Assembly (NCBI GenBank): GCA_964019415.1
Contig: OZ025882.1
Span: 3,826,427-3,890,426, forward strand
Length of the DNA stretch: 64,000 bases
DNA from: Ianthella basta
Taxonomy: Eukaryota > Porifera > Demospongiae > Verongiida > Ianthellidae
Reading direction: 5' to 3'
Every line of letters begins with the position of its first letter. The stretch's first letter is position 1. Positions 18,201-49,701 of the stretch are shown one piece after another. Below the pieces are notes generated by a model. It was not told the DNA's origin, searched no databases, and worked only from the letters and a program-made list of their open reading frames with translations. The translations under genes were made by a program, and so were the position numbers.

Positions 18201-20347
18201 CCACTTTGGTTCATGCACGCTTGAGTTCATGGATGCCTGGTGTGGAGGGGATGGAGAACGCATCATCTGTTGCTGGGGTATCTTCATGCTTCATTTCTAT
18301 GCGGCCAAGCGTACTAAGTATGCACTACAAGCACTTCACTTGAAATTTCAGTTAGCATCACTCCCTCCTTCCCTTGCACACCAGCTGAGTGGAGTCACTT
18401 TGTAAACACTCATGGTGGCCTTGGACGTAACATTCCATGTGATCTTCACAATGAGCATACTAACAAACCTATGAAGGAGATCACTGTGAACATAAGGGCC
18501 AACCTCAAGGAATGTGCGCTGTCAAGAGCTGCAAGATCAATAACATCCCTCAAGCGCATCAGGGATGCTTTTTATAGGGAATCAGATGTCCTTGTTAGCA
18601 CAACTGTCCACAGCACCAGATCAGAAGAGGATGACATTAACAAAGTTGTGTCAGTAGTGGAATCTGAGAAGGTGCTTGTAGTGAAGGCAAAACATGCACG
18701 GTTTCGCAAGTTCCCAGCTATGCAATTCAAGCTGGACAAGCAGGCAATGATGATCTGGATTAAGCAAAAACATGGGCAAATGTCGAAATATGAAATGATG
18801 CAAGATGATGATGAAAGTACTTCGGAATCTGAAACAAGTGGTGAAGAGGATTAGAACATTATATAAATATAAATGCTCAAAGTTGGCAAGGGTGCCCCCT
18901 TGCCTACCGGGTATGTAATGTATGCAGAAAACACAAGTTTTGAATGCTTGTATTTACTAAGCCAAGCATGCTTTTGGATTCAAACTTGGAAATTTTACTA
19001 CTTACCACAAGGTCTACCAGTGCTGAAAAAATTGGATCACAAGTGCGCTTGGAAATTTTAGGTGGGCTCTATTTGGAATTATGAATATGTGCCTTTAAGA
19101 CTACATACATGTACAAGTACTCTTGACTGAATGCAGCTCACAGTGCAATCCAATCAGATTAGGGATACACATACAACATGCACATACATACGGATGTAAT
19201 TAGTTGCACCTCATGTCATGAGACTGCACCTCAGCAAAGTTCCAAACCACAACTACATGACTCGACATGAGGTGCCATGTGACATCATAGCATATCTGTA
19301 CAGTAGAACCTCCCTTATCCGGACCTCTTAGATATGGGTATCTCCCTCTACCGGGCAGGCAAAAAAGATCTTTTCAAAAAAGTTTCATAAAAAATTATTT
19401 GCAATTTTTTCTAAATTCTTTTTAACTATTTGTATGTACTGCATTACAGTACAGTACCATGTGTACTGTATTACAGCTTAATTGCAATTATTGTGATTAC
19501 ATTGCATTAAATCTGTATTGTTGGTATTTCAAAGATACAGGCAATTCTGAGTTATGGGCCCTGCCCGGTCCCATGGTGTCCGGTTAAGGGAAGTTCTACT
19601 GTATTATGATTAGGTTGCAATTGGTAAAGCTCAATGTATGGCAATGTGCCAAACCTACTTTAAAATTGACCCTATAGGATGAATCAACATGAAATTCGGG
19701 GAGAACACAGCTGACATATATCTCCAGGTTGAAACACCCTGCTCTCGCCTTCCCTTGTTTTAAGCTTCAGTATTGTTCCCCAAATTTCATGTTGATTCAA
19801 CCAACGCTGAGTCTCTTAATACAGGATGATCTCAAGTGCAGACAACGAACTTGGCAACATCGTTGTACTACAGAGTACCTGCAAGAAAGTGCTCCGACCT
19901 AATCTGTAGGGTAGAATGGGTTATTCCGCTCACTCTTGGCTCGCGAGAAGCAAGCGCCCAACTTCGCTGTAAGGTAAAAGCTGTAGCTAAGTGTTGCCAC
20001 TACCAGCCTTTCCTCCACTGTAGCTCATTTGGCGTTTTGTAGTAGATACCTGAACGCCTACCAGTGACTGGATCGCCACGGGTTACCTTACTATCTACTA
20101 AAGGACCACTACGCATATGATACCACACATCAGTAGGGCCTGCCATGCTGCAACGGCTACTGACCTCATGCTCAGAAAACTCAAAGGAGCACTGCAGTGC
20201 CAAGTCGCAGGGGTTTCGATCAATGAAGTCGACGCGCTCTTGAGGTTCTGGGATCACATCAGCTACTACCTCTGCAGGCTTGTCCGAAAAGTTGCACTGC
20301 CGTCCAAATTCGGCTCTCTTCTTGGTATACACGTAAGTAACTTCCAT
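300..20347 (-). CDS. DNAI2: Dynein axonemal intermediate chain 2 (outer arm), N-terminal part
   Basis: WD-repeat intermediate chain of the outer dynein arm of motile cilia; it helps anchor the arm to the doublet microtubule. Exons read in order on the minus strand: 20347-20165, 15820-15659, 15524-15409, 15298-15156, 14572-14459, 14156-14052, 6035-5887 and 425-300, all with GT-AG borders and frames that join. Family hallmarks are the start [15 protein letters not shown], the block [17 protein letters not shown], the WD piece [30 protein letters not shown] and MVGTEQG. These match the vertebrate DNAI2 order from residue 1 to about 310; the C-terminal third lies left of the window. The gene is stretched by three introns of 4.3, 8.0 and 5.5 kb that hold most of the transposons here, while the other introns are 0.1-0.6 kb. 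The start codon is fixed by similarity at the N-terminus. Confidence 0.93.
836..1100 (+). repeat. Dispersed repeat D1, copy 1, with palindromic edge
   Basis: Bases 833-856 and 877-902 form an inverted repeat around CTTGTCGCTACATGG. The stretch from about 877 to 1075 is clearly similar to 16741-16905, sharing for example GGAATTTTTATACACTAGT. It lies in a DNAI2 intron. No coding capacity is seen, so a nonautonomous DNA element is the likeliest reading. Confidence 0.6.
1185..1652 (+). repeat. Dispersed repeat R1, copy A
   Basis: About 470 bp that recur almost end to end, inverted, at 14625-15112. One edge starts with CAACAAAATGGCGACATTGG and the other, read inward, with GTTCAAAATGGTGTCTCCTA, so the edges are loosely inverted copies with a YY1-like AAAATGGCG core. 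The right edge runs into a palindrome GACGTCATGAACGTGACGTC holding two CRE-like TGACGTC words. It lies in the last DNAI2 intron of the window. Confidence 0.65.
2677..3646. mobile_element. Nonautonomous TIR element nested in the DIRS copy
   Basis: The ends are CAGGGCCGTCGGAGGC and its reverse complement, with inverted similarity continuing inward (GTGGTACGGCCAT on the left against GTGGTAAGGCCAT on the right). A 5-bp duplication TTAGT flanks it (2672-2676 and 3647-3651). The RT-RNase H reading on both sides belongs to one DIRS copy, which shows insertion after the DIRS element. No transposase is seen. The superfamily is unresolved: the CAGGG terminus is hAT-like but hAT makes 8-bp duplications. 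Confidence 0.72.
3921..4051. mobile_element. Short MITE with ATTATATTTTG ends
   Basis: The ends ATTATATTTTGTGATTTGTA and, inverted, ATTATATTTTGCGGTTTGCG enclose 131 bp with no ORF. It sits between the RNase H and recombinase pieces of the DIRS relic. The inner words resemble those of the MITE at 28444-29003 (CCGCCAAAA/CCGCAAA), so a distant family link is possible. Confidence 0.5.
6249..6500. repeat. Foldback repeat
   Basis: Arms of about 45 bp, beginning GTGAAAGCACCCCTACCAAA at 6255 and returning inverted at 6455-6496, enclose about 160 bp. It lies in the 8-kb DNAI2 intron, just upstream of exon 7 in the gene's direction. No coding capacity. Confidence 0.65.
7809..8538 (+). pseudogene. Myb/SANT-like protein, likely the accessory gene of a Harbinger transposon
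   Basis: An open frame to 8336 starts [16 protein letters not shown] (an upstream in-frame ATG exists at 7755). It then has a SANT-like helix region with [17 protein letters not shown] and CWEDIAATL, followed by an acidic stretch [17 protein letters not shown]. After two small frame changes around a poly-A run near 8370, the coding sense resumes as a glutamine-rich coiled coil ([20 protein letters not shown]) ending at 8538. Such Myb-like proteins are the usual partner of PIF/Harbinger DDE transposases. A Harbinger transposase relic lies convergently at 12103-12751, separated only by the retrotransposon at 8680-12031. The frameshifts suggest a dead copy. Confidence 0.6.
8680..8783 (+). promoter_or_regulatory. 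5' UTR / internal promoter of the retrotransposon with YY1-like site
   Basis: CAAGATGGCGG at about 8689-8699 fits the YY1 core (A)AnATGGCGG and lies within 20 bases of the element's 5' boundary. Bases 8720-8765 carry tandem GATTCGTTCA and AGAGTATCTC words. A related 5' region at about 54190-54205 (minus strand) also has AAAAATGGCGGT ahead of the homologous ORF start. Confidence 0.5.
8784..11885 (+). CDS. Retrotransposon polyprotein: Cys-rich finger, reverse transcriptase, restriction-like endonuclease
   Basis: The frame is open from 8718 (1055 codons). I favour the second ATG at 8784 because the homologous copy at 54140 starts MPTVPACC just before the same Cys cluster. Numbered from 8718: residues 26-62 hold a Cys-rich region ([16 protein letters not shown]). 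RT motifs follow: [10 protein letters not shown] (motif 2), LLVDASNAF with D461, QGDPL 514-518, YADD 543-546 and LGAAIGS. The C-terminus has [15 protein letters not shown] (837-851), RHD at 860-862, then LDIK (D907) and FFDVRV (D924). This CCHC plus PD-(D/E)XK-like order marks the restriction-like endonuclease of the R2/R4/CRE/NeSL/HERO side of non-LTR elements. There is no N-terminal APE nuclease. Clade within the RLE group is not resolved. Confidence 0.88.
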   Translation: MPQCCRCNGSGRCNKCICYKSGRRCTDCLPHRVNRCENRAEPNHDESATLGGRTCQTAEELAKEDRQAGDGFQLASHNDLPHFNTTNLPNFVWGDTDGETLSSRLKKAYEEVVSWKRNLFEVPRGKAGTDFVSEVTRLIEAYNDATALESIALKAVMVMPSLLLQRPHARSSTKDNIRCLEERLSKWKKGDLDSLVHEGRTVQSQLNTHQIQHQDEGRTARSFEKLVSAGNVKAAMRLITEHQDRGCLPLDSLQPDGRTVKQHLQDKHPPGRPAIPSAISDSPPAAEPHEVIFDQIDGPLIRSIVQGMDGSAGPSGLNAGNWKRMCSSFRRTSEDLCKSIARLARRLCTGYVDPEGISALVACRLIALDKCPGVRPVGIGETLRRLISKAVLQVARDDIQRVVGCLQLCAGQEAACEAGILAMRSLFEDGTVEAVLLVDASNAFNSLNREAALRNTHILCPILAPMLTNTYRSPARLFIGGDHILSQEGTTQGDPLAMAMYALGTLPLILKLQNDVTQAWYADDATAGGEITGLRRWWEKLEAIGPQYGYHPNPNKTWLVVKPEHLPAAEEQFQETGVKITTQGQRHLGAAIGSRNFVEDFVREKVLVWVSEIEKLSRIARYQPQAAHTVFTHGLMHRWTFLMRTVPGVEELFQPLEEVIRHQFLPALTGRKALSDSERALLALPARHGGLGIPIPTAAAQRQFLACSSISAPLVEVIKQQNTNYPMEVRLKQRHAKAAIRTNNRNDAAEEAMALKPKLSNAQQCAMEQASEKGASSWLTALPLAKYDFCLHKQAFRDALCLRFGWTPTRLPSHCPCGKLFTVDHAFSCPNGALPSIRHDRIRDITANFLTEVCPNVGLEPTLQPLTGESFPLRSTNTEEGARLDIKAQNFWDNSQRSAFFDVRVFNSFAPTNSSSSTSSTYRRHEREKRRAYEQRVLQVEHGTFTPLVLSSSGGWGPSATVAFRRLAGLIATKHGQSYSTTLSFIRCKIGYSLIQSGIMCLRGPRSSFHAPAKAISLEEHPLDLIRQEVRLY
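12103..12751 (-). pseudogene. PIF/Harbinger DDE transposase relic
   Basis: Three overlapping frames give one transposase sense. They read [20 protein letters not shown] (first catalytic D), then [17 protein letters not shown], then [12 protein letters not shown] (second D), and [16 protein letters not shown] (catalytic E). This is the DDE_Tnp_4 signature of Harbinger transposases. Frame changes near 12600 and 12390 break it. It ends 70 bp beyond the 3' duplication of the retrotransposon. The Myb-like ORF on the other side suggests one Harbinger element split by a later insertion. Terminal repeats of the Harbinger element were not located. Confidence 0.8.
13060..13175. repeat. Imperfect palindrome
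   Basis: Arms around GACCAATCGGTGTCTCTGTA and, inverted, GACCAAGAGGTGTCTCTGAG enclose about 50 bp. Probably a small foldback or MITE in the DNAI2 intron; no coding content. Confidence 0.55.
13285..13377. repeat. Fragment of the TACCGTATGG-type MITE family
   Basis: The stretch ending CCAAAATTTTCTACCCATAC, followed by AGTA, resembles the termini of the element at 28444-29003, whose end reads CTAAAATTTCCAGCCATACG. Only one end is recognised here. Confidence 0.45.
13381..13990 (+). mobile_element. TIR element carrying a Myb/SANT-like coding segment
   Basis: The left end CAGGCTCTGTTTACATAGAG and the inverted right end GAGGCTGTGTTTACGCAGAG bound about 610 bp. Inside, 13519-13893 (plus) is open and reads SANT-like: [20 protein letters not shown], then [15 protein letters not shown]. 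This resembles Myb/SANT-like proteins encoded by or derived from DNA transposons. No transposase is present, so it is either an internal deletion of a larger element or a captured segment. Position: DNAI2 intron, just upstream of exon 6 in gene direction. Confidence 0.6.
14625..15112 (-). repeat. Dispersed repeat R1, copy B
   Basis: Inverted relative to copy A at 1185-1652 and alignable by eye over nearly the whole length; shared words include GGAAGGAGAATAA, AAAAGAACAAATGGGGTA and CCAAAGAAGCCTATCCATGG. It has AAAATGGCGGCATTGGG at one edge and AAAATGGCGTCTCC at the other. It fills the short intron between DNAI2 exons 4 and 5. Confidence 0.7.
16020..16250 (-). repeat. Dispersed repeat R1, partial copy C with CRE-like palindrome
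   Basis: The piece with CAACAAAATGGTGGCATTGG (minus strand) matches the R1 left edge. It adds an outer palindrome CAGACGTCACGAACGTGACG, the counterpart of the palindrome on the right edge of copy A. This suggests R1 elements end in matching GACGTC palindromes on both sides. Confidence 0.55.
16276..16420 (-). mobile_element. LINE 3' end fragment with (TAGGA)n tail
   Basis: On the minus strand the text runs GGTGCCTTTGTAGTAGCC, TTTGGCTATTGGTTCCCCAG, then AATAAAGATTTCCTATCC and a short pentamer tail. The same TAGTAGCCTTTGGCTA motif occurs on the plus strand at 61966-61983, after a recognisable LINE RT C-terminus, which is why I call it a LINE 3' end. Confidence 0.5.
16705..16905 (+). repeat. Dispersed repeat D1, copy 2
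   Basis: Bases 16741-16905 match 880-1040. Bases 16705-16735 (AGTCCTTGGATATGCAAAAA) are the inverse of the flank found after copy 1 (TTTTTGCATATCCAAAGGAC near 1040-1058). The element therefore probably has these words as inverted termini. Confidence 0.55.
17041..18854 (+). pseudogene. Decayed gene for a DUF6589-domain protein (transposon-associated)
   Basis: Segments in order are [20 protein letters not shown] with [10 protein letters not shown] (17120-17220), [19 protein letters not shown] (17460-17520), SGGDQLT then [20 protein letters not shown] (17565-17700), and [18 protein letters not shown] (17820-17890). They continue with [20 protein letters not shown] and [18 protein letters not shown] (18434-18490), then an acidic tail to 18854. 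This is the DUF6589 order known from repeated genes of cnidarians, sponges and fungi. A GT-AG intron fits at about 17712-17820. Frames shift near 17430, 17585 and 18400, so this copy looks dead. It lies in DNAI2 intron 1, antisense to the host gene. A link to a specific transposon class is inference. Confidence 0.72.
19301..19601. mobile_element. pogo/Tigger-like MITE
   Basis: The ends CAGTAGAACCTCCCTTATCC and, inverted, CAGTAGAACTTCCCTTAACC bound 301 bp, flanked by TA on both sides (19299-19300 and 19602-19603). CAGT termini and TA duplication are typical of the Tc1/mariner-pogo group. No ORF inside. Confidence 0.8.
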
Positions 20348-20764: not shown

Positions 20765-23045
20765 ATGGCGGATTCTGCACCAGCCGGTGAAAGTCAAGGT
20801 GGTTTTGGCCGAGGACGGGGCCGTGGAGGCAGATCCCGTGGCCGAAGGGGTGGACGAGGAAGGGGAGGAGCTAAGGAAGCTAAGGATGTAAGGATCATTG
20901 TGCACAGCATACATAGTTTGATGGTAGGTGCTGAGGGGATGACTGATTGCTTGCACCTTACAGTGGATTCCCACTACCAAGTTGGGCCGTCTGGTCAAGG
21001 ATGGAAAGATCAGGCGACTAGAAGACATCTACTTGTTTGCCATGCCTATCAAAGTGAGCATTTGCAAGGAGGATTAGTAGCATGTGGTTTGTTTTAGTGG
21101 TAGAGTAGGTATTTCTTTAAGGTGTTACGAAATTTCCTGCAACAGCACACTTGCTTTTTATCTGTAGGAAACGGAGATCATTGACCACTTTTTGGGTACT
21201 TCCCTTAAGGATGAGGTGATGAAGATCATGCCAGTGCAGAAGCAGACTAGGGCTGGGCAGAGGACCCGCTTCAAGGCTATAGTGGCTATTGGTGATAGCA
21301 ACAGGCATGTGGGACTGGGAGTCAAGTGCTCCAAAGAAGTGGCCACAGCCATTAGAGGGGCCATCATGCTTGCTAAGCTTTCTGTCATCCCAGTGCGCTT
21401 GGGGTACTGGGGTAACAAGATTGGCCAGCCACACACTGTACCCTGCAAGGTAAAGTGTCAGTTTGTCTTTGGTTGGTTGATGATGACTCGTGCTATATCA
21501 GACAGCATGCTAGTGCTGTCTGTAGGGACGGTTGTTGTTTGTATGCTGTAAAATACAAACGGGAAGTAGTGCTGTTACCATGTAGGGCTAAAAGCCAGCA
21601 AAAAAGGCTACCCATGACAAAGTGTCAGTTGTATGACACTCGGGACTAACCTTACTTCCAAGTAAAACTGCACACTCCCGCTGAATAAGACCTGGACATT
21701 TTCTGCATTTCATCTTTTCTTCTTCTCTGACAGCAGTAGTGCATGAGCCATAGGGAGTACGAGAAAGCTATCACCACAGTACTATGCCGCATTCTACTGG
21801 CTGTATTCCTTTGTAGGTATGAAACCTCTACAAGCAAGTTTCACAAATTAAGGTTTCCTGGCCTTTGGGAGACATTGCTACAAGAGATACTCCATTTCAA
21901 GATGGCATTAGCAAATGCTTTGGCTACTTATACACATTCATTTGCCTAGTAGCCTCCTTCAAATTCATTAGCTTATCAACACCATCATGTGTCCGTTTGG
22001 AGGTGTGAACATGGCTAGTTTCGGCCAAAATTAGCTTGCGCACTATTTGAAGGACATTCACGGTCGTGCGTTTCCATGCCATTTATTACTGCAAGTTGGC
22101 TTCCAGTCGCCACGTCTGCATTCTTTTTGATGGGTTATAATTAGCATGGGCCCTAGATACTTAGCTAACTAAAACCTTAAGCCCCAAGGTTACGGAAATA
22201 GGGTAAGGGTAGTAACATCTATTATCATGGTATGTAGCTACAGCTACACACTATAAAAAGTACAGAAACAAGAAATAGTAAAAACATTGTACAAAAATAG
22301 CAAGGATGTAGGGATGGCATAGAAAAGGACAGAAGGTCCGGCTGGTCCTTTACGGTCCCCCATTTATATATATACCAGGTGCTGAAGGGGTTACCTTATA
22401 ATAATAGCAACAATAACAAAACAAGTAAAGGCTCTTACACAGTGGAGCATTAAACGTGGTCCCTACCTTCAAGGATGTAGGACTATAAGGTGTGACATTT
22501 TGCATATAGGGACCATGGTTAGTGCTCCACTGCATAAGAGCCTTTATTTGCTTCTGTCCTTTTTATGCCACCCCTACATCCTTACTATTTTTGCAGAAAA
22601 TTTTAATATTTATTTACATTGTGTGATCCTTCCTTCACAGGTGACAGGCAAGTGTGGGTCTGTACTGGTGCGCCTCATTCCTGCACCCAGAGGTACTGGA
22701 ATTGTGTCAGCTCCTGTACCAAAGAAGCTGCTTCAGATGGCAGGTGTTGAAGACTGCTGGACATGTGCTAGAGGTTCCACTGCCACTCTGGGCAACTTTG
22801 GTAGGTCCATGCATGCATGTTTCAGGTTTGAGTACATGGGTACATCATGGAACCTTGCTCTCTCTCCTCCTTTCCCTATAATTATAGCCAAAGCGACCTT
22901 TGCAGCCATGACCAAGACATACAGCTACCTCACTCCTGACCTCTGGGTTGACAGGCCACTGACCAAGCCACCCTTGCAGGAGTTTACTGACCATCTGGCA
23001 AAGCACCAGGCACCTGTGCCTGTGAAGAAGCCAGCAGCTTTCTAA
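20765..23045 (+). CDS. RPS2: 40S ribosomal protein S2 (uS5)
   Basis: Component of the small ribosomal subunit needed for decoding fidelity and 40S assembly. Five exons join in frame: 20765-20887, 20964-21053, 21168-21449, 22641-22800 and 22888-23045. The protein is about 271 residues. An N-terminal RG-rich tail ([20 protein letters not shown]) is followed by [15 protein letters not shown] and the S5 double-stranded RNA-binding block [19 protein letters not shown]. It continues with [36 protein letters not shown] and [11 protein letters not shown]. Start and stop agree with the family. The 1.2-kb intron 3 contains a foldback MITE. RPS2 introns host snoRNAs in some animals; none was recognised here. 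Confidence 0.97.
22288..22598. mobile_element. Foldback MITE inside RPS2 intron 3
   Basis: The left edge AATAGCAAGGATGTAGGGAT and the inverted right edge AATAGTAAGGATGTAGGGGT start arms that stay alignable for about 100 bp. The inner arms read AAAGGCTCTTACACAGTGGA against AAAGGCTCTTATGCAGTGGA. An 85-bp segment interrupts the left arm at about 22333-22417. The transcribed intron would form a long hairpin. Confidence 0.75.
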
Positions 23046-35200: not shown

Positions 35201-38144
35201 AAGGAGATCATTGAAAGCAGTAACAGGTTTCATGGATCATCAGGATATGCACAGGGGACATGCAATGATTTCGTACTGTTTCAAGGCATAGGAAGCAGCT
35301 AGGCACGGGTGAATCCCTTCTACATGCTTATTGAATGGCTACTGAAGTACAAAGTGAGGAGCTTGTTAAGAGGGAACACCACCCACAACACATGAAGGGA
35401 TAGACTACATGGAAAGTCAATAATGAGATAACGAGATCATCTTGCACTGGCCATGCATTGTGTTCTAGGTGAACTGGATCAAGGATAAAACCCACAGGTG
35501 ATTCACTGACTGAACTAAGTGGTATATCACTTGGGAATCTAGGGAGGTCAACTTGCTGAGCTGTTGTTGCACATGTACTCAGCTGATGTGGTAGAGTCTC
35601 ATGTAGTTATGTCAATGATGAACTAGACAAGGAAGATTCAGAGCGTGACGCACAGCTTAGCTGTTTACATTCCAACAAAATGTCTGTTATTGTAACAGTC
35701 CTGGTGTTACAAGGGACTGTCCTATCAGTACACCACAGCATGATATGCATGCCAATACCAGGATGTGCTGTCAGCACATTGCATGGAAAGCAAACTCGTT
35801 GTAGAGCAGGGAAAGCCAACATCCAGCACTTCGGCATGGCATGGCTTGAGTGCTTACGTCAATATCACTTCCTTCTCTGAAATCGTCAGGGAAGTCCTCC
35901 TGCTCAGGGAAGTCCTCCTGCTCAGGGAAGTCCTCCTGCTCATTACCAATGTCTTCAGCCTTCACTTCCACCGGATAAAGCTGGTCTTTGGTGTCCATCA
36001 CTGTTAAACCTCCACTGACGTCAGAGGAGAATGCCATGCAGCACACAACACACTCCAGAGATACCCTGGGGAGCAAAACAAGTACTGTATCCTTGCCTAC
36101 TCTGATTGCTGAGTAGATAAAGGCTCATGTCTATCTTTCTGTGTCAGACATAGCACTAACTGTAATGTTACCTTTGCACCACTTGCAGCTGTGGGGCACT
36201 CCAGATCGTTACACTTGCATCAAGGGATGCACCAGCAAGGAGCCTCCCATTAGGTGACCAGCAGGCTAAACTGAATACCTGCACACACAGAAGGGGGGAA
36301 GCACAGGGCACATGTGTACTGTACGTACAGTACTTTGCATGCAGTGTATTTGCACCAATTGTTTGTCCCAAGACACTAACTGATCTGAAAAGAATGAATA
36401 AGTCAAACCATGCATGGACTGGACATTTGGAAGCCGTTCAAGACCAGTGCAAGTCACCTTGGGTTCACCAGAGCAAAGCAGTGTTGCTTTCTCTGTCCAG
36501 GTTTCATAGGAGAATAGTTTGATCCCATCCCTTCCACATGGAACAGCAAGTGCTAACCCACAATGGGCCTCCCATGCCATTCGTCCTAGAGGGTGATTGA
36601 AAGTTGCATCACTGAACTTGGAAAGGCAGCTGATAGTTTTGAGACACTCCTTCTTCTCCAGCAACCAAATCTTAAGAGTGCCATCAGCACTTGTACTTGC
36701 CTGCACAGAGAGATAAACCAGAAGACATGCACAGCCTGCCCAACTCATGCAGCGGTGGTCTTACTTAGTATAGCAGTTAAACGCAGGATCATGGTCAACT
36801 ACATGCAGTCAAGGGTTTCTGCATTTCTCCATTCACCAGCACAATATGGCCAATGCTTAGTGTACCAAAAGGTTTAGCAATTGACTACAATGATCTGACA
36901 ATATGACTATGCAAGCAGTGCAGCACTATAGCAGGTCAATACTCAGCTGAGCACATACACTAACTTGTCTATCTACTAGACAAATATTGGACATTTGTGT
37001 GGCTCTATTCAGTGGTGGATCTGGAATATGATCAGGGGTTCTAGTATGTAGATGTCCCCCGCATCACTTCCCTCCAACATTATATGAAGCATTGAGTTTC
37101 ATACTGAACAACAGCAGTTATTCATTTGTATCAGAGGGCACACATACATGTAGCAGCCCCATGGTCTATGGTGTGGCAGCAGAAGAGAATCAGTAAATTA
37201 ACTATCCTAGTATAGCACAGAGCTCTTACAAGGTATTTGCCTTTGGGTCCAAACTTGACTGACAGCACTGGGCCTACATGGCCTGAGAGTACTGCAACCT
37301 GCTGCATTGTCTCAGTGTCAGCCAGCTTGATGGAGAAGTCAGATGAAGCTGCCACAAGTGTAGTCTGAGAAAGGTTAACATCCATGTGATTCACTGCAGC
37401 ACTGAATCGAAGGAGTAAGCCAAGACCTTCACCCTGAAATAGTAAAAGGTTAATCTTAAAACACTGACTATTGCACCTTATTAAACACTGACTGTTGCAC
37501 CTTATTAAACACTGACTGTTGCACCTTATTAAACACTGACTATTGCACCTCATTAAACACTGACTATTGCACCTTATTAAACACTGACTATTGCACCTTA
37601 TTAAACACTGACTATTGCACCTTATTAAACACTGACTATTGCACCTTATTAAACACTGACTATTGCACCTTATTAAATTGCATGCCATTGAAGTACATTG
37701 ATCTAAACACACTACCACAGATATCCTTAATGGATTGCTCACATTGTGCCCAAACACTCGCACACCATTGTCAGTTGTCGTAAGAGCAATTGCGCCTTCT
37801 CCCTAAAGTACATAAAGAATGCACACCACACACAGTACACACTGTAGGCACACACATCTTAGCACAACACATTTCAGAGAAAGGCCACAAATTACACATA
37901 ATCCTCTCTTCAGGAGCGGCTTCTGCGTATTAATCCAGAGAACTTAATTACTGCACATAATACATACACTATTAGCAACCAACGTTGTCAAGTGCACAGC
38001 TGTCACATGCAACTCACATCATTGTGCTTCCATACAGCCACACATCGACCAGATGAAGAAGAGACATTCAACACATGATGGCATACCAAGTCTTCACTGG
38101 ATAATATCTTCACAGAAGAGTTACTATCACAGACCAATAGTTGC
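23206..38144 (-). CDS. WDHD1: WD repeat and HMG-box DNA-binding protein 1 (AND-1/CTF4)
   Basis: Trimeric replisome hub that links the CMG helicase to DNA polymerase alpha. Exons from 5' to 3': 38144-38018, 37802-37743, 37433-37230, 36700-36458, 36278-36172, 36065-35858, 34865-34617, 34527-34255, 31236-31071, 29885-29793, 29626-29499, 28129-28068, 27833-27641, 27567-27499, 27326-27086, 26647-26496, 26162-26022, 23686-23571, 23353-23206. WD repeats come first (TLVAASSDFSIKLADTET, ASTSADGTLKIW, ACWSPNGRLLAGAS). Next is an acidic linker, then the SepB domain (RFMVYNSVGIVRS, VEVEFHDI, WDSSKEWTV, RLFSTGGVQRGLLSLHGPI). The NPFK linker motif and a C-terminal HMG-like box (FSKWFSESK, EELVKLGIKQWRAMTKEEKQ) close it. 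The first coding exon, upstream of 38144, was not identified. The protein ends right after the HMG box, without the basic tail of vertebrates. Confidence 0.92.
23795..23990. repeat. Foldback repeat next to LINE relic
   Basis: Arms of about 75 bp start TTCAGGAAAGATTGAATGAG on the left (23800) and return inverted on the right to about 23980, meeting around 23890. The right arm runs into the LINE 5' fragment. It lies in the last large intron of WDHD1. Confidence 0.7.
24050..25153 (+). mobile_element. 5' fragment of an APE-type LINE (CR1/L2-like)
   Basis: At 24098-24385 an ORF holds SGDVECSPGPTKP followed by a PHD-like Cys cluster (CPCVGC, ECLQCFKW, CSLC). At 24552-25140, across one frameshift near 24880, the apurinic endonuclease reads VSETWLVDSV, then IPGFRLYRKDRNVDRG, LIGNVYRPPS, GDFNCNML and GLSDHSLIF. 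The RT is missing, so it is truncated or broken off at about 25300. It lies antisense in a WDHD1 intron. Confidence 0.8.
25283..25561 (-). mobile_element. Possible retroelement-derived ORF fragment
   Basis: The minus-strand frame METLGVIGPESESFLRDLAH with GTTGEPVLAPATL resembles a coding piece seen near the 3' parts of some invertebrate LINE-derived repeats (recalled pattern, not searched). It directly follows the LINE fragment, in opposite orientation. Confidence 0.3.
28444..29003. mobile_element. TIR element with TA target duplication and exon-like content
   Basis: The ends CCGTATGGCTGGAAATTTTG and, inverted, CCGTATGGCTGGAAATTTTA lie between TA dinucleotides, giving about 560 bp. The minus strand at 28690-28840 reads GHYVSTEFWTPEVEEEREEA and GIVYVVAVKTDIEIIV, followed by a GT donor at 28689. 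It looks like a captured exon. No transposase. Host: WDHD1 intron. Confidence 0.65.
30090..30470 (+). mobile_element. Penelope-like element relic (GIY-YIG endonuclease)
   Basis: The plus strand reads VKQKTPEEQKAVVYHVPFND, then CSKVYIGDTKSTLKNR, and after frame breaks HVQTTNHSIDWEGV. This is the GIY-YIG nuclease C-terminal domain typical of Penelope-like retroelements (VVYHVP and VYIG core, HxIDW). Stops and frameshifts show it is dead. No RT part was found upstream. It lies in the WDHD1 intron between exons 29885 and 31071. Confidence 0.75.
31375..31975. mobile_element. Nonautonomous TIR element
   Basis: The left end TCCCCCCTTTCACATGGCC and the inverted right end CTCCCCCCTTGCACATGACC bound about 600 bp. 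It contains a short plus ORF from 31531 (MATTGVTDYFGANMRHKRWS) that I do not recognise. It abuts the next inverted-repeat element. Confidence 0.55.
31976..32590. mobile_element. Long-TIR foldback element
   Basis: The left arm, starting AAGAGTAGATAAGAGATGAG, runs to about 32120. The right arm (32447-32590) is its inverse, with about 85 percent identity by eye, including ATTCTGATGTAATGGATGAA against ATTCTGATGCAATGAATGAA. The middle 32121-32440 is unrelated to the arms and is open on the plus strand (93 codons), without a recognised domain. Confidence 0.65.
35887..35942 (-). repeat. In-frame 18-bp tandem repeat in a WDHD1 exon
   Basis: Three copies of CAGGGAAGTCCTCCTGCT encode EQEDFP three times in the acidic linker after the WD repeats. 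The 18-bp unit keeps frame. The unit adds acidic and aromatic residues to a linker that is acidic in animal WDHD1. Confidence 0.9.
37458..37677. repeat. 24-bp minisatellite in a WDHD1 intron
   Basis: About nine copies of AAACACTGACTATTGCACCT plus TATT, nearly identical, lie in the intron between exons 37743 and 37433. Because the unit is a multiple of three, the minus strand stays open and reads LIRCNSQC repeated, contiguous with the flanking exon frame through the 3' splice site. Confidence 0.95.
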
Positions 38145-41318: not shown

Positions 41319-42838
41319 TCAAATTGCATCATAATCTACAGAGGTATGAAGTCCATCAAAGTTCACGTATGCCTTTACACCCAGTTCTGCCTGCCGAGGA
41401 TCAAACCCACTGTTCTCAAATTCATCACCCATTTCGTCATCACTGTCAAACTCATAATCACTGTCAGTGTCTACTGATGGTACTTCTTCAGTGTTTGGAT
41501 TGGGATAGGGGAAGGAGCTGGGTGGGGCTTCAGCAGGGGCAGTGTCGATGACAACCTAAATGGACGTATGATGTGGATGACAAATAATTTGGGGATTAAG
41601 TTACAATGAAACATATGCATCACTTACCTCTGGTGCCTCTTGTACTACATCCTCTTTGAGTTGTGGGACGCTGACAGGGGGTACCATTGCCAGTGACCTG
41701 GGAATAGTTTCAGAATGCTCAAAGGGAAACCCCAGGTTTCGAATGAGCAGTGTTGTGTCATCAACTGAGCTACAATCCATTCTATCTCCAGCACTCTCCT
41801 TGTACTTTGTCTTGACCAAGCCATGCACTTTGTCAATCACAGCCCTGCTGAGGCCCGCAAGAGAAGAACTGAATTTCATCTCTTCTGTGATCATTCTCAC
41901 CACTGCCAAGTTGGCATCCTCACGACTATCAGCTGCACTGCTGATACCTCCATACAGCCCTTTGGACATTAGCACAAGGAATCCCTTCTTAATACTTTGC
42001 AAAGCAAATGGTCCACTCACGGATGGCTCGGCAGTGCCTGGATAACTCTTTGCAAGCCTACGTATACATAATGAACACCAAATTAACCACAGCACTGTTT
42101 ACAAGAAGCTCTACATTACCTGAGAAGACAGCATGGCTGAGACTATGTACTATCTGACAGTATCTGGTAACCCCTCCTGAATTTGGTCAATCATTGTATG
42201 TAACCTGAGATTGAACTATAACCCTTGTGTAGAGCACACAAGCCATGTTAGCCCATGTGGTCCTGATATGCACACTAAATGCAATTGTGTGTGTTCTACT
42301 CACACCAATGCTCTGCCTTGAAGGGTCTACAGATGGTTCCTCTCACCTTAGGGTATCTACATCTTGGTATCCATGCTTGACAAAGTAATCCCCAATGCTC
42401 CTGGTGTTCTGGTGCATGCCCAGGCGTTTTGAATGCAGCAGACAAGCCCTGTCCAAGCCAAGGTGCACTAGCCGAGTTAGCTCATCCTCATTGGCAACCA
42501 CATGATCTACACTCAGCTGGGACACCATCATATCGCACAGTTCATCCATTGTGCAAAGAAGCACCCTGGAGTTACCCACATTGGCCACATACAAGGAGTC
42601 GCCAACTATGAGAGCCAGTGCTACCGTAGTGCCTCCTCTGATAGCCTCTTCTATCTCCTGTAGTTTCTCAACATGGCGAGGGTAGTTATTTTGAGCTTCA
42701 GCAGAAGTGTACTCCTAGTGTGTGCATGCATGTGTGTGTGTGTAGGTGTGTGCACATGCATGTGTGCGGTGTGTGTGTGTGCATGTGTGCATGTGCGTGT
42801 GTGTGTGTGTGCATGCATGTGGCATGCATGTGTGTGTA

Positions 42839-42911
<73 letters not shown>

Positions 42912-44543
42912 GTGCATGTGTGGTGTGTGTGTGTGTGTGTGTGCATGAGTGAGAGGCACAGAGAGGATTAACTACAGATACATGAACACAATAGGTATAC
43001 ATGTCACAAGTACTCATTTAATCTAATGTATGTCCAAGTGTTTGACAAGAAATACAATAGTCTGTAGAATAGGTTATAATATATTCCTCCTACGGTGTCA
43101 TAATTGATTCATTGCTGAATAAGGGAAGCATGGGTGAATGACAGTTAAGTACTTCCATTCAACACAGCTGGCAGAACCTGTCTGGACCTAAGCTAGTGCA
43201 GCTACCAAATCATGCAGAAATGGTGTTGAGTAGTGGACCCATCTCTACACTTGGCAGCAACTTCACTTCACTTGGGATGGGTGAGTGGATGAAGAGCATT
43301 GAGGAGGAAGAAAGGCAGAATGTTACTGTCATGGCGTAAAAGTTCCCCCCACCGAAATGGTTCCGCCAGGCCAAAAACGGCAGAAAATTGCTGCCGTAAT
43401 GGTTCCACTGTAGTGACAATGTCCCTTTCATCTCTCGATATTCGATGTTGTGGTAGATCTTGAGCGCGCAGCGAAGACATGTCAGCTGAAATCGTCCATT
43501 CATTGAACAAAATTGTCCATTCATTGAACGAAATCGCCTATAAATCGAACCAAAGCACCCATCCAATGAACAAAATCGCCTTTTCATCAAACAAAACATG
43601 TTATCCTGCATTGAGAGTGCGTCCCAACTTGGGAAAGACTTCAGGGTACAAGTACATGACGAATCTGATGGTCAGTCCATGCTAGGGCTGGTGATTTAGC
43701 AGAGGGGGAACCATTTCAGTTGCTGCTTCGGTTCCACGGGGGGCCTAATTATGGGGGGCCCAATATTTTGCATGACATTACACCTGAGGATATTGCAACC
43801 CTGTTCATATGTTTAGTTGGACAAATGAAGTCATTTCAGTTTCAGCTAATTCCAAAACACCTCTCACCACATGAAGTCAAATACGTACACAGGGCAGTAC
43901 TCAATACAGTACATAGTGTACCTCCAGGTCTGCTCGTATGACTGCCCTCTGTGTCAAGTATGGATCCATGTCCTTGAAGAACAACCTATCAGTGCGAACA
44001 AAGGCTTCCACCAGAGCTGTTTTGACTGACTTGGGAGGACCTGGAAGCAACAAGGGATGCAGAAACAACAGATACTAAAGTAAACCATCAATGACAAGAG
44101 TATTGTATGGCTCAATTTGCTGTGTAGAACAATCAACCAACAGCTGGGTGCCAAAAACTAGCAATCCCCTCATTTGGGTGAAAGCAACATGATATAACAA
44201 GATGTTTGTCACATTGTGAGAACTATGATAGTCTCACAACACCCCATTGCACTACAGCATAGCCCTCTCTGAGTTCACAGGAATAAAGTGAGCTGATAGG
44301 GAAGAACATACCATGAAGGTCTGATGCCATCAGTAGCTCTGGTAGGCGCTTCAGTGCAAAGTCAGCTGCCCTCGAGCTGTCATGGCCATCCATCACAATG
44401 TACATCCTAATGTCTCCATTGACAATGACAGTATACCTGTCCTCTTGCAGCTTTTGTTCATGGCCAGAGTAGTAGGATTGATTCTGTACTGATGCCACAC
44501 TTGTTTGTTCACAGGGTACCGTTGACAACCCCCCATTCGCAGC
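41319..44543 (-). CDS. TAB1: TAB1-like PP2C-fold protein, copy A (pseudophosphatase-like)
   Basis: TAB1 binds and activates the kinase TAK1 in TGF-beta and innate signalling; its PP2C fold is inactive in vertebrates. Exons: 44543-44312, 44040-43922, 42657-42347, 42057-41628, 41555-41319; the first coding exon is not identified. The fold shows QEDRYTVIV and YIVMDGHDSSRAADFALKRL. Next come LVEAFVRTDRLFF, VGDSLYVANVGNSRVLL and VDHVVANEDELTRLVHLGLD. GPFALQSIKKGFLVLMSKGL and DDTTLLIRNLGFPF follow. The TAB1-specific sense (VANVG, MSKGLY like human MSEGLY, LLIRNLGFP like LLVRNFGYP) sets it apart from ordinary PP2Cs. The third metal Asp is Lys here. The C-terminus is acidic and ends AYVNFDGLHTSVDYDAI, comparable to the TAK1-binding YVDFAEF tail. 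It is divergent with copy B at 46385. Confidence 0.87.
42716..42950. repeat. (TG)n microsatellite in a TAB1-A intron
   Basis: About 235 bp of TG repeats with interspersed CATG words, in the intron between exons 43922 and 42657. Transcribed in TAB1-A as CA repeats. Confidence 0.97.
43490..43602. repeat. 21-bp minisatellite in the same TAB1-A intron
   Basis: Five to six diverged units such as AATCGTCCATTCATTGAACA and AATTGTCCATTCATTGAACG. The minus strand is open through the array with a heptad-length reading (RFCSLDG, QFCSMNG), as expected for a unit divisible by three. Confidence 0.85.
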
Positions 44544-46384
44544 CTGTGGTGCAAACAGACAATAATGCAGATCAAATGCTCATACAATGCCCAGGAGCAG
44601 AAATGGTCCTTGCTCATTACATGTGACCTGACCAAATGTAAGTTTCCTTTGGGGGACACAAGCAAAAGGGAGGACCAATACACAGCACGTGTGTCATCAC
44701 CACTCCGACACAAAACAGATAAGTGATTAGCCATACCATAAACCATACCCAGCTATGTGCTAACGGTGGCTGGTGGGTGCAGGCCAACAAAGATGGACAA
44801 CACCAACTATCAACGAAGAGGCTATGGCTTGGATATAAATGATGGCTAGAACATGCATGGAAGGAAAATTTCATGGATGACTATTTTGTTGAATGTCCTA
44901 TATCTGGGCCAAATGTAGATTTTCTTGGGACAATAGACATTTGTTAAATAGATGAAGATAAGCCACATCCATTAGACAATAGCAGAGTGTAGACAAGTAG
45001 ACAAAATATAACAAAGCTCTTGATAATACAATAATGGACACGTGCCCACGGTACAATGATGGTTATTATCACAGTCAACACTGGGATATGTAGCTTAGGC
45101 AAGTGCATTCTTAGAGAGTACAAAGCCTTGTGTCTCCACTCCTGAGGCTGGTGAGTGCACTACAGCCGCCCTTGCTGTGTACACTGCAAAAGGGACAATG
45201 ATAACTACTGTTTATGCAGAATGAGTGTAATCCAGACTATGAAATCGGTACACCATCTTGGTGACAGAAGGGAGAACAGCTATTCCATGAGCAACTTCTA
45301 TCGCTGTTTGTAGTATGTTTCACGAAGAATAGTACCATGTGGGGTACATGCTTGTGATGAAAACTTTCATGACGTATTCTCTATTCATGAAATTTGAATG
45401 GCATAATCACACATTATTGTTGCTCCTGGAGTCTAGCCAGTCAGGTACAGCCACCCCTTCTGCTATGCACAAGGGGTGGGGTCTGCTGCTTTGGCTTGTG
45501 CACCATGTGCAGTTGTAGTAGTCACAGGCCAATTCAAATACAAGGGAGGTGTGAAGTAGTTGTGGTGTCCATGGCTGCTCAAGGGCAAAAACAGACAGTG
45601 AAGTAGACCCAGCCTGCTCTTGTGCGGAAGGTCAGTAATACCTGTCTGACCATAGATAATAAATTATCTACTGTCTGACTAAAGTCACCCCACGTTTATT
45701 GCTACCTTTGGCCACTGTTTTCGCAATAGCAACAAATAATGGTGTTTCCTTTTGATAACATTCCTGAATCGTCCTATGTGGTCATTATTGGCATTTTGGC
45801 ATAAATACCTGATTCTATGGTGACATCTTATATGTGTCTACAGAACTGTATGTTCGATTCAGTACAACGGGACCAACAAAGCTACGTTCTGAACTAATAG
45901 ATACCACTTACATAACGGTTAAACTTAATGACTGACTAGTTCACTCACAACAGTCTCCTTGATTGGCATGTCTCACAAACTGGGAGAACCGTGAAGAAGC
46001 TGACGTAGCACGCAACTGGTGGAATGATTACGTAATTGACCTCGATTGCGTAATAATTGTGCACCGCACCGCCCGTCGCCAGCTACCAAGAATGTAGTCT
46101 GGCTCGCTAGACCGTCCCGTAAGCGCCGGTAGGCGTGGAAGGGAAGGGACGTCCCTCCCCTCGCAGCCCCAAGGCGCTTATTGGGACGGTCTAGCGAGCC
46201 AGACTACCAAGAATGTGACTGTACTCGTAAAGAGCTATTTGAGTCTACGAGCCCTTGGCATACGCATTGAGCCGCCTGCCGAAGTTTATTGCAAGGATAC
46301 TCGTAATACAAACCGTAAACATTGATAATTATTTTGTTGATAAACTGAGGAAGGGACGTTGTGAGGGGATGTCCCTGAATATTA
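44544..46384. promoter_or_regulatory. Intergenic region between the two TAB1 genes
   Basis: 1.84 kb between the head-to-head TAB1-A and TAB1-B coding parts. It must contain the missing first exon of copy A. It carries a 112-bp TIR element at 46095-46206, less than 200 bp before the copy B start codon. No other gene is recognised. Confidence 0.5.
46095..46206. mobile_element. Micro-MITE 1 with 9-bp target duplication
   Basis: 112 bp with perfect 24-bp ends TAGTCTGGCTCGCTAGACCG plus TCCC, flanked by CCAAGAATG at 46086-46094 and 46207-46215. TIRs plus 9-bp duplications suggest a Mutator-like origin. It lies in the promoter region of TAB1-B. Confidence 0.9.
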
Positions 46385-48659
46385 ATGAACAAGATGGCCG
46401 AGGGTGTACCCGGAAAGCTAGGTATAGAGTACAGCGCTTCGGAACTTGGCAATGCTAGATACGAGAGTGGAAAGGACCCCGTATCAATGCACAATATAGA
46501 GGACAAGTGTTTTGTGCTGTCGATGCCCCACTCTAAGGTATTCTGTGTTTTGGACGGTCACGATGGTGCCAATGCAGTGGAGTTCGTACATACTGAACTG
46601 AAGCGAATCTTCTCCTCTAAAAGCTGGGAGACGATAGCTCGTGGGAGGAGACGTGAACATATTGTACATGCTCTAAAAGAATTCTTTACCGTAGTAGACA
46701 GATTGTTTTTTGACGGCATGAGGGAATCTATTGACAGAAAAAAGCGAATACAAGACAGGTTACAAGTGAGTTGCAGGGAACTGGTATGGTCCTTATGCAA
46801 AGTGTTGGGGTCAACTGACTTTAACAGACACGACTATATTATGGCATAATGACGCCACTGGAATTAACCTATGAACATAGCGACCATAGCTGAGCTGGAG
46901 CTGGAAGGAGCACTAGTAGCATTATGATGAACACAAAACATAACCCTAGCCCTAACCCTATTTTACAGATGGCCTAGAACTAAGTTGTTATAGTGTGCAC
47001 CCAAGGCTAAGTTGTTGTAGAGTGTGCCCAAAGCTAAGTTCTTGAAGAGGCAACCGAAGCTAGCTTAATGATGTTGGGGTTGTCACAGAATGCTTCCGGT
47101 GACGTCATTATGCCATGATATAGTCGTGTCCGTTAAAGTCAGTTGATCCAAGTGTTGCTCGTATGGCTGTATTTTCTATTGCTACTTTGCCTGCTTGTAT
47201 CAGGTTGGCTAAGGCCTGCTGCACAGGAAATGGACCCCCTTTAGCTAACTCGAACCATTCACAATTGGTCTACTTAAGTGGGCTCAGGGTTACAATTAAA
47301 GTTGGTTGTTTTGCAGGGAGACCCATTGGCTACAAAGGTGTATGTTCATCACAATTTCAATATTATATCCATTTCCAGGTAGTAAGCTATCTAGTAATCT
47401 TATCATGAGTGTGCCATTTCAAGAGGTGGTATGCTGTCTCATGAGGCCATTTTAAGTAATCAACTTTCAGTAGGTGCACGAGAGTAGCTACTCCCATGCA
47501 GTGTACTAATGCCAGACATGTGGCTATTGGGGTGCCACGTGTGAGCTATTTGCAATAGTGGATTTTTGGGACCTACGTAGTGGAAGGGCATATAATCTCC
47601 CATCTAGTCTAGATTCACCTTCAGTCACTTATCTGGCTTGTGTTATTGCTTATATGATGGATAGGGACTAAACTCCTTTGAGGCTTTTCAGCGTTATCCC
47701 GATAAAGTTCGTAAACTGCAGCAGCTGGAAGTGAAGATCCAAGGTGGCAGCACAGCTTGCCTAGTCATTTTGTGTGGAGATGTGTTGTATGCAGCCAATG
47801 TGGGAGACTCCCGTGCACTACTGTACTATGAAAATGGACACTGTGAGCAGCTGACTGTGGACCATGACACGGACAATGATGATGAACTGAAGCGCTTGCA
47901 GTCACTGGGTCTTGATTATAAGGAGATTAAGAAGAACAAAAGAATTGGAAGTCACGAAAACACAAGATCATTTGGGGACTATAGCCTGAAAGAAGGCTAC
48001 AAGGATACAGATTCCCTTCAGTAAGTTCCCTGTGCATACTACAATGGCATCAATGAAAGTGAACGGCAGTGTACTATCTATATATGAGAATACACATTAA
48101 TACAGTGGGTTTAGGGTGGTACTGGGCTATGGGAGCATACTTTGGTCTGGTGTAGTTCTTAGTAACGCACACGGATGTATTTGCCTTGTTTACTACCTTG
48201 ACATGTACCCCTTCTCTGTATTGTGCATTGTCAGCGTGCATGGTCCAACATGTATGTACCATACAAACTATTCCTTTCATCCTCAGATCAGCCACCGGGC
48301 CGGTGGGGACAGCAGAGCCCTATATCTCAGAGCCACGTACATACCACAATTCATGGCGCTACCTTGTCCTAATGACAGATGGGGTGTACAAGAGTCTGGC
48401 CAGCGTGCTTGGCTCCAGCACTCATGGTGACTCTGTAAACAGCCAGCTTTTGAGCATCATCAAGCAGGCAGATGCAGAAAAGGACACCAGTGCTGCTATC
48501 TCTGGAGTAGTGCTATCGCGCATTGCTGTCATGCATGAAAGGACTTTCATAAGGTACATTCACTCTACAGACGTGGAACTACAACAGCTGGCAGTCCAGT
48601 GCTCCAAGAGGGATGACCTAACCCTGATTGTAGTAAAGCTGTTTCCTGCTTCTGAATAA
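46385..48659 (+). CDS. TAB1-family PP2C phosphatase, copy B (metal site intact)
   Basis: Three exons, 46385-46765, 47692-48020 and 48287-48659, join in frame to about 360 residues; an in-frame ATG at 46394 is an alternative start. The PP2C motifs are in order NIEDKCFVL, FCVLDGHDGANAVEFV, LYAANVGDSRALL, VDHDTDNDDELKRLQSLGLD, WRYLVLMTDGVYKSL and KRDDLTLIVVKLF. ANVGDSR, TDG and RDD are the canonical active forms, in contrast to copy A and to human TAB1. The GLD, IGSHENTRSFGDY and KEGYKDTDSL segments match TAB1 rather than other PP2Cs. There is no C-terminal TAK1-binding tail. Intron 1 holds a TIR element (46800-47160). It is tail-to-tail with UBE2S, with 151 bp between stops. Confidence 0.85.
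46800..47160. mobile_element. TIR element in intron 1 of TAB1-B
   Basis: The left arm with GGTCAACTGACTTTAACAGA and the inverted right arm with GATCAACTGACTTTAACGGA continue alike for about 60 bp (CACGACTATATTATGGCATA). The 240-bp centre has no ORF. The target duplication is not certain. Confidence 0.75.
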
Positions 48660-48810: not shown

Positions 48811-49701
48811 TTATAGACGTTTCAGTCCTTTTTTGTCTTTCTTCTTTTTCGCCGCATTCTCTACTTCTGTGCATTTCCTTTTGTTTGGTGCATCATTGCT
48901 ACTGCTTCCTTGGACATCCTGTGCCAGGTCAACAGGACCAGACTTTGCATGCACTGAAGTCATCATCTGTGCTCTCTTAAAGTACTCCTCATACTCTTCT
49001 TGGAGCAATCTACCAGCCTCTTCATTCAAAGCCGAATCAGGGTTGGGATAAATCAGCAGACATTTTACAGTCTGATTGCAATAGAGAAGAGTAAAGCACA
49101 CCATACACTCTGTACACCTTTTAAGGGTTTCAATAATAATATACTCAATAATTCTCATTTTTGTAATTGTGCATGTATCATGTTTAATATTCTTAGAGTC
49201 TCTCACCAGTAGAATGTGCTTGATGCCACTGTCAGGCTTCCAGTCCTTCTTCAGAGTGTTAACACAAATGGCACCGTTACTGGCCACATTGGGGTGGAAT
49301 ATTTTGGTTATGAAGAACCCTGTGCATCAATGGGACAAACAACATTAGCTCATACCTGCAGAGACCCAAGGAGACGTGCCACATTACTACTACTAATATA
49401 CCTTGGGGAGGAGAAGCTGGGAAATCATGGCCAAGCACTAACTTCATTCTGAAGGCTCCGCCTTCATATGGGGTATCCTCTATATAGAGATAATAACCAA
49501 AGGCATTCATCTTAATAGCTTGTGCAGGTTTGCAGTAGCATACCACATGCTACTGCACTCACTGGGTCCTTCTATAGTAGCTGAAATATTAGTCACATCT
49601 TCTTCTCCAATTATCACGGAAATTCCATCAAGAGGGCTTTTCATCAAATCCATTAATTCCTTTGACACCTGACGCAGAATGTCTGGTGACAAGTTCTCCA
49701 T
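48811..49701 (-). CDS. UBE2S: Ubiquitin-conjugating enzyme E2 S
   Basis: E2 that extends K11-linked ubiquitin chains on APC/C substrates in mitosis. Exons: 49701-49563, 49479-49402, 49319-49207, 49071-48811. The start [20 protein letters not shown] matches the UBE2S N-terminus; an acceptor 12 bp upstream means a few more N-terminal codons may come from an earlier exon. The UBC core shows [39 protein letters not shown] (catalytic Cys in ICVN), [16 protein letters not shown] and [20 protein letters not shown]. The long lysine-rich tail ends [12 protein letters not shown], the counterpart of the human APC/C-binding tail (RALRRL). It is head-to-head with PCYT2 and tail-to-tail with TAB1-B. Confidence 0.95.

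Follow-up and report, generated by a model that had tools for sequence, protein, structure and literature searches.

A trio of TAB1-clade PP2C genes in the sponge Ianthella basta, one of them retaining all metal-site and general-acid positions checked

TAB1 carries a C-terminal TAK1-binding motif and has a p38-binding stretch after its PP2C domain. In the solved mosquito protein (PDB 2irm, the listing of which gives the molecule name and which we take to be from Anopheles), the positions corresponding to the metal site of PPM1A, whose numbering is used throughout, show the losses E37R, D60S, D146N and D239S. Human TAB1 (PDB 2j4o, 5nzz and 8xi8) has a different set of replacements, with five of seven positions changed (D60N, H62Y, D146T, D239E and D282E), and a table in PMC8622459, where TAB1 is described as a pseudophosphatase, agrees on D60, H62, D239 and D282. 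Among PP2Cs, a comparable case is the PHLPP family, described as descending from an active enzyme and as including an animal pseudophosphatase (PMC12002173). Here, a stretch of 64,000 nucleotides from the sponge Ianthella basta (assembly GCA_964019415.1, contig OZ025882.1, positions 3,826,427 to 3,890,426; hereafter the window) was analyzed, in which two TAB1-family genes, copies A and B, lie head to head, while a third one, copy C, is found 1.4 kb past the window end. From the gene models and alignments, it appears rather probable that these genes form a TAB1 trio in which A would be a pseudophosphatase scaffold, B a metal-complete and probably working phosphatase and C a possibly weak or inactive relative.

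The interval 41319..48659 extends exactly from the stop codon of copy A (minus strand) to the stop codon of copy B (plus strand), with the two start codons 415 bp apart. Copy B is modelled with three exons encoding 369 aa and GT-AG at every junction. Its exon 1 (46385..46765) bears the equivalents of E37, D38, D60 and H62, exon 2 (47665..48020) contains NVGDSRA with D146 kept as well as the TAB1-shared block RSFGDYSLKEGYKDTD, and exon 3 (48287..48659) encodes MTDG with D239 and KRDD with D282, ending without a tail at a stop codon only 8 residues past RDDLTLIV. All seven positions checked, representing metal ligands and general acid, are kept in the motifs HNIED, LDGHDG, NVGDSRA, MTDG and KRDD. 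Position 282 lies past the end of the human PPM1A row (278) and was taken from the PDP-, PPM1H- and PPM1D-type rows instead. At the remaining positions (E37, D38, D60, H62, D146 and D239), B and human PPM1A are all identical, although only 58 of 254 aligned sites are identical overall, and the chance that six randomly drawn aligned sites are all identical amounts to 1.2e-4. Accordingly, the head-to-head arrangement and the metal-site motifs of B (ED, DGHDG, TDG, RDD and NVGDSRA) that an earlier note on this DNA had reported are reproduced by the gene models.

Copy A, also with GT-AG at every junction, comprises six exons on the minus strand encoding 468 aa. A putative exon 1 (45949..45969, start codon plus 7 codons) is defined by ATG, donor site and frame only. 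It is followed by exon 2 (44312..44543) with the equivalents of E37, D38, D60 and H62, exon 3 (43922..44040), exon 4 (42347..42714) with NVGNSR, where D146 is changed to N, and the TAB1-shared block RSIGDYFVKHGYQDVD, exon 5 (41628..42057) with MSKG (D239 to K), SVDD (D282 kept) and a PVSVP stretch, and exon 6 (41319..41555) encoding an acidic C-terminal tail and the stop codon. About 109 aa lie beyond the PP2C domain. Together with LQED and MDGHDSS, these motifs indicate that A retains D60, H62 and D282, unlike human TAB1, and has lost D146 (GDSR to GNSR) and D239. Hence, the earlier note was right about the third aspartate (MSKG) and the tail, but had missed the additional D146N. From these losses, copy A is predicted to be a pseudophosphatase. 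Degeneration of the metal site within the TAB1 clade is a feature it shares with the mosquito protein, while the aligned PVSVP stretch past the domain is shared with human TAB1. In copy C, D146N is the sole loss among the positions checked, giving two changed positions in A, one in C and none in B versus five in human TAB1, from which B also differs by lacking a tail.

Pfam assigns PP2C to all three copies, and comparison with solved structures places each of them closest to TAB1. Copy A matches human TAB1 at 2.6e-56, mosquito TAB1 at 6.3e-39 and, as best non-TAB1 structure, PPM1K at 1.8e-7; the corresponding values are 1.6e-36, 6.8e-28 and 1.1e-8 for copy B and 4.5e-36, 2.1e-17 and 7.3e-6 for copy C. 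Besides the PP2C domain, the trio has in common with human TAB1 a block of the form LGLD...TR.GDY..K.GY.D. PPM1A and PPM1K resemble copy B in the metal aspartates and the general-acid histidine, but B is distinguished from them by the TAB1 block, a lysine at D243 and the missing canonical R33, and its scores against them are far below those for TAB1. In a tree of ten rows (five TAB1 versus five other PP2Cs, the set not including PPM1G) and 318 columns, the TAB1 clade is supported at 100/98, and its branch was retained in all six re-runs, one without mosquito and one without C, at bootstrap values of 91-100. Copies A and B are thus both members of the TAB1 family, as previously proposed. With all seven positions kept, copy B is classed as TAB1-clade and not as a TAB1 pseudophosphatase.

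Alternative placements of B were evaluated by the approximately unbiased (AU) test. Grouping with PPM1A/1G-type phosphatases, which the earlier note had named as one of two findings that would speak against its proposal, was rejected for the two PPM1A rows (p 0.0006). Placing B with the PPM1A and PPM1D rows (p 0.0002), with the PDP row (p 0.005) or with the PPM1H row (p 0.007) was likewise rejected. Setting B apart from the remaining TAB1 rows (A, C, human, mosquito), towards the outgroups, was not rejected (p 0.302), which fits B as the first branch of the TAB1 clade. A search by pattern for other TAB1s in a collection of genome contigs gave 31 loci of 144 matches, bacterial by title, and none of 46 in viral contigs; therefore, no relatives were available from there to make the tree denser.

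Several observations weigh against a working enzyme encoded by copy B. In B, the place of R33 of PPM1A, four residues ahead of E37, is taken by methionine, and in a gapped alignment an arginine is found ten residues further away. In addition, B agrees with human TAB1 in having lysine for D243, which in PPM1A is a ligand of M3. According to a review (PMC13358185), mutating the phosphate-coordinating arginine suffices to abolish activity. Likewise, overall conservation hardly brings B nearer to active-type PP2Cs than A: among 41 columns on which four or more of the five active-type rows are in agreement, 29 are retained in B, 28 in A, 26 in C, 24 in human TAB1 and 23 in mosquito TAB1, and it is therefore the metal positions, not overall conservation, that single out B. 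The loss of the phosphate-binding arginine and of D243 would suit a protein which may hold metals without turnover of phosphate, all three copies then being scaffolds or competitors. However, B keeps E37, H62 and the five aspartates checked, a set eroded to varying degrees in A and in the human and mosquito proteins, and this pattern suggests that the metal site is under selection. Moreover, R33 and D243 vary among the other PP2Cs of this genome, known here from sequence only: N or M stands at R33, while D243 is E in the PDP-type and PPM1H-type genes and N in the PPM1D-type gene. The objection of the missing arginine is softened by the N of the PDP-type gene at R33 and by the K88A replacement at the equivalent site of PPM1H, which is reported to cause a more than 20-fold loss (PMC8567228). 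That B is likewise a pseudophosphatase seems unlikely, though by no means negligible. The catalytic competence previously ascribed to B holds for the complete set of checked metal positions, but with lysine at D243 and the phosphate-contacting arginine absent at canonical spacing it is only probable. Copy B would accordingly be read as a TAB1-clade PP2C with kept metal centre, probably acting as a metal-dependent Ser/Thr phosphatase and perhaps near the same kinase pathway as copy A, the putative TAB1-type pseudophosphatase scaffold. Copy C, in which the M3 aspartate D146 is the sole checked position lost, may have little or no activity in spite of its D239, since the M3 site is reported to be necessary (PMC5390078, PMC13142519).

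Copy C (404 aa, minus strand, window-equivalent 65423-67606) was first found by a PP2C family search, its exons lying at 7606-7184, 6560-6193 and 5846-5423 of locus L009; GT-AG models were the only ones tried. It is without a tail comparable to that of A. All three genes are located within 26 kb, show pairwise identities of 37-38% and have two introns in common at the same alignment columns (179, phase 0, and 368, phase 2), to which A adds three more. Since another member, C, is located about 17 kb away from B, the simple two-gene pair or module envisaged before has to be given up in favor of a trio. Searching the genome (209 Mb, 96 contigs, best candidates scored) with B gave ten matches, representing three to B itself, one to A, three to C and one each to PDP-, PPM1H- and PPM1A-type loci, the last label having been checked against solved structures and the two others being our reading. 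No fourth TAB1-type locus is among these ten matches listed for B.

On the origin of the trio, the trees cannot discriminate between lineage-specific duplication and an old paralogy. With all rows, the root separates (B, C) from (A, human, mosquito), and A is joined to the human and mosquito proteins at 81/86 in the ten-row tree and at 76/83 in the corresponding re-run. This topology is in line with B and C representing an old paralogue lineage, split from TAB1 proper before animal diversification and missing in human and mosquito, a history which is possible but to which we attach somewhat less than an even chance. The grouping of B with C reaches only 58/19 and 61/52 with all rows, however, and the root moves once long outgroup rows are dropped, three outgroup branches being long in the ten-row tree. 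When the PDP row, the PPM1H and PPM1D rows or all three were left out, A joined B+C at bootstrap values of 83, 75 and 84, with B+C itself at 95, 89 and 97; over the six re-runs, A stands with human (and mosquito) TAB1 in three and with B+C in three. The latter placement corresponds to A, B and C being lineage-specific duplicates, with the pseudophosphatase states of A, human and mosquito TAB1 having arisen separately from an intact ancestor. This scenario, to be given an even chance, is also in accordance with the location of the three genes close to one another, with the differing D239 replacements (K, E and S, respectively) and with an AU test not rejecting A+B+C together (p 0.397; A+B alone, p 0.066). 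It has to be reconciled with the joining of A to human and mosquito TAB1 when all outgroups are present, which persists when mosquito (A with human, 87/88) or C (A with human and mosquito, 67/81) is left out. The animal genome searched for B/C-like genes was this one.

Because the root depends on the choice of outgroup, the role of B as the enzymatic ancestor of the scaffold, which the earlier note had suggested, is not borne out. Nevertheless, we infer an intact metal site in the ancestor of the three copies, which is favored under either rooting since repeated loss is more likely than a regain of several aspartates in B. Taken together, what the earlier note had observed was confirmed, and its interpretation is supported in part, namely as three TAB1 genes of which one is metal-complete. 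That this animal has both a TAB1 pseudophosphatase of its own and, next to it, a functional phosphatase of the TAB1 clade, TAB1 activity having been lost more than once, is a tentative and rather doubtful proposal. If true, the enzymatic state of the scaffold survives in a living genome. The metal-intact B, the partly eroded A and the nearly intact C provide a natural series for finding out which residues had to be lost for the enzyme to become inactive, and whether the TAK1-pathway scaffold began as a phosphatase. The trio differs from PHLPP not only in belonging to another family: for PHLPP, activity is assigned to a time before the metazoan ancestor (PMC12002173), whereas here a metal-complete member is present in an animal genome. 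Among the matches listed from titles and abstract openings of open-licence literature, an active TAB1 was without report, which leaves room for prior mention. For another sponge, Amphimedon, the core Toll pathway has been reported, with TAB1 shown in a table (PMC3517549).

In the tail of copy A, no TAK1-binding motif stands out from chance: the best match to the human stretch, KAYVNFDGLHTSV, was equalled by 1006 of 3000 shuffles. The exon 5 stretch MVPPVSVPQ aligns with RVYPVSVPY of the p38-binding region of human TAB1, and 31 of 5000 shuffles were as good. Three exon-wise genome searches, by which split genes are easily missed, gave no clear TAK1 gene among the candidates scored (139 of 1138, 150 of 620 and 150 of 363); therefore, a link between copy A and TAK1 rests on homology. 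The kinases from these searches show at most 41% identity, and the match on contig C20 looks to be of MLK type by our reading.

The 415 bp that separate the two start codons (45970..46384) possibly represent a shared promoter, from which A and B may be co-expressed as the earlier note had considered. This intergenic stretch contains a repetitive element resembling a miniature inverted-repeat transposable element (MITE; 46094..46207) with 25-bp perfect inverted ends (46094-46118 and 46183-46207). Its 112-bp core gave 82 match rows on both strands, corresponding to 41 distinct places in the genome; in some of these matches, which span about 0.8-1 kb, the two ends alone are covered. No Rfam match at gathering scores was obtained in the window.

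Further PP2C matches were noted elsewhere in the genome. Two of identical score, 13 kb apart (G000:C23:4417752-4418081 and 4430823-4431152), perhaps reflect a recent duplication, and a third one (G000:C14:5367267-5367515), PHLPP-like by our reading, has LATEQLW where active PP2Cs have DG. Just downstream of copy B, positions 48811-49326 (minus) match a ubiquitin-conjugating enzyme (PF00179, 2.7e-15). Elsewhere in the window, a 1073-aa open frame at 8664-11885 (plus) weakly resembles reverse transcriptase (PF00078, 2.9e-6, below cut-off), 17821-18405 (plus) matches DUF6589 at 3.3e-17 and 22386-23045 (plus) the ribosomal protein S5 C-terminal domain at 2.3e-20. A WDHD1-type WD40 match (2e-18, below cut-off) is located at 37131-37802 (minus), in a frame that also crosses 24-bp tandem repeats. 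Finally, searching the genome with silicatein gave genes resembling cathepsins but no clear silicatein, and cathepsin-like frames at G000:C6:3129855-3135951 show an altered catalytic region (e.g., QGEIGDSI) and are possible pseudopeptidases.

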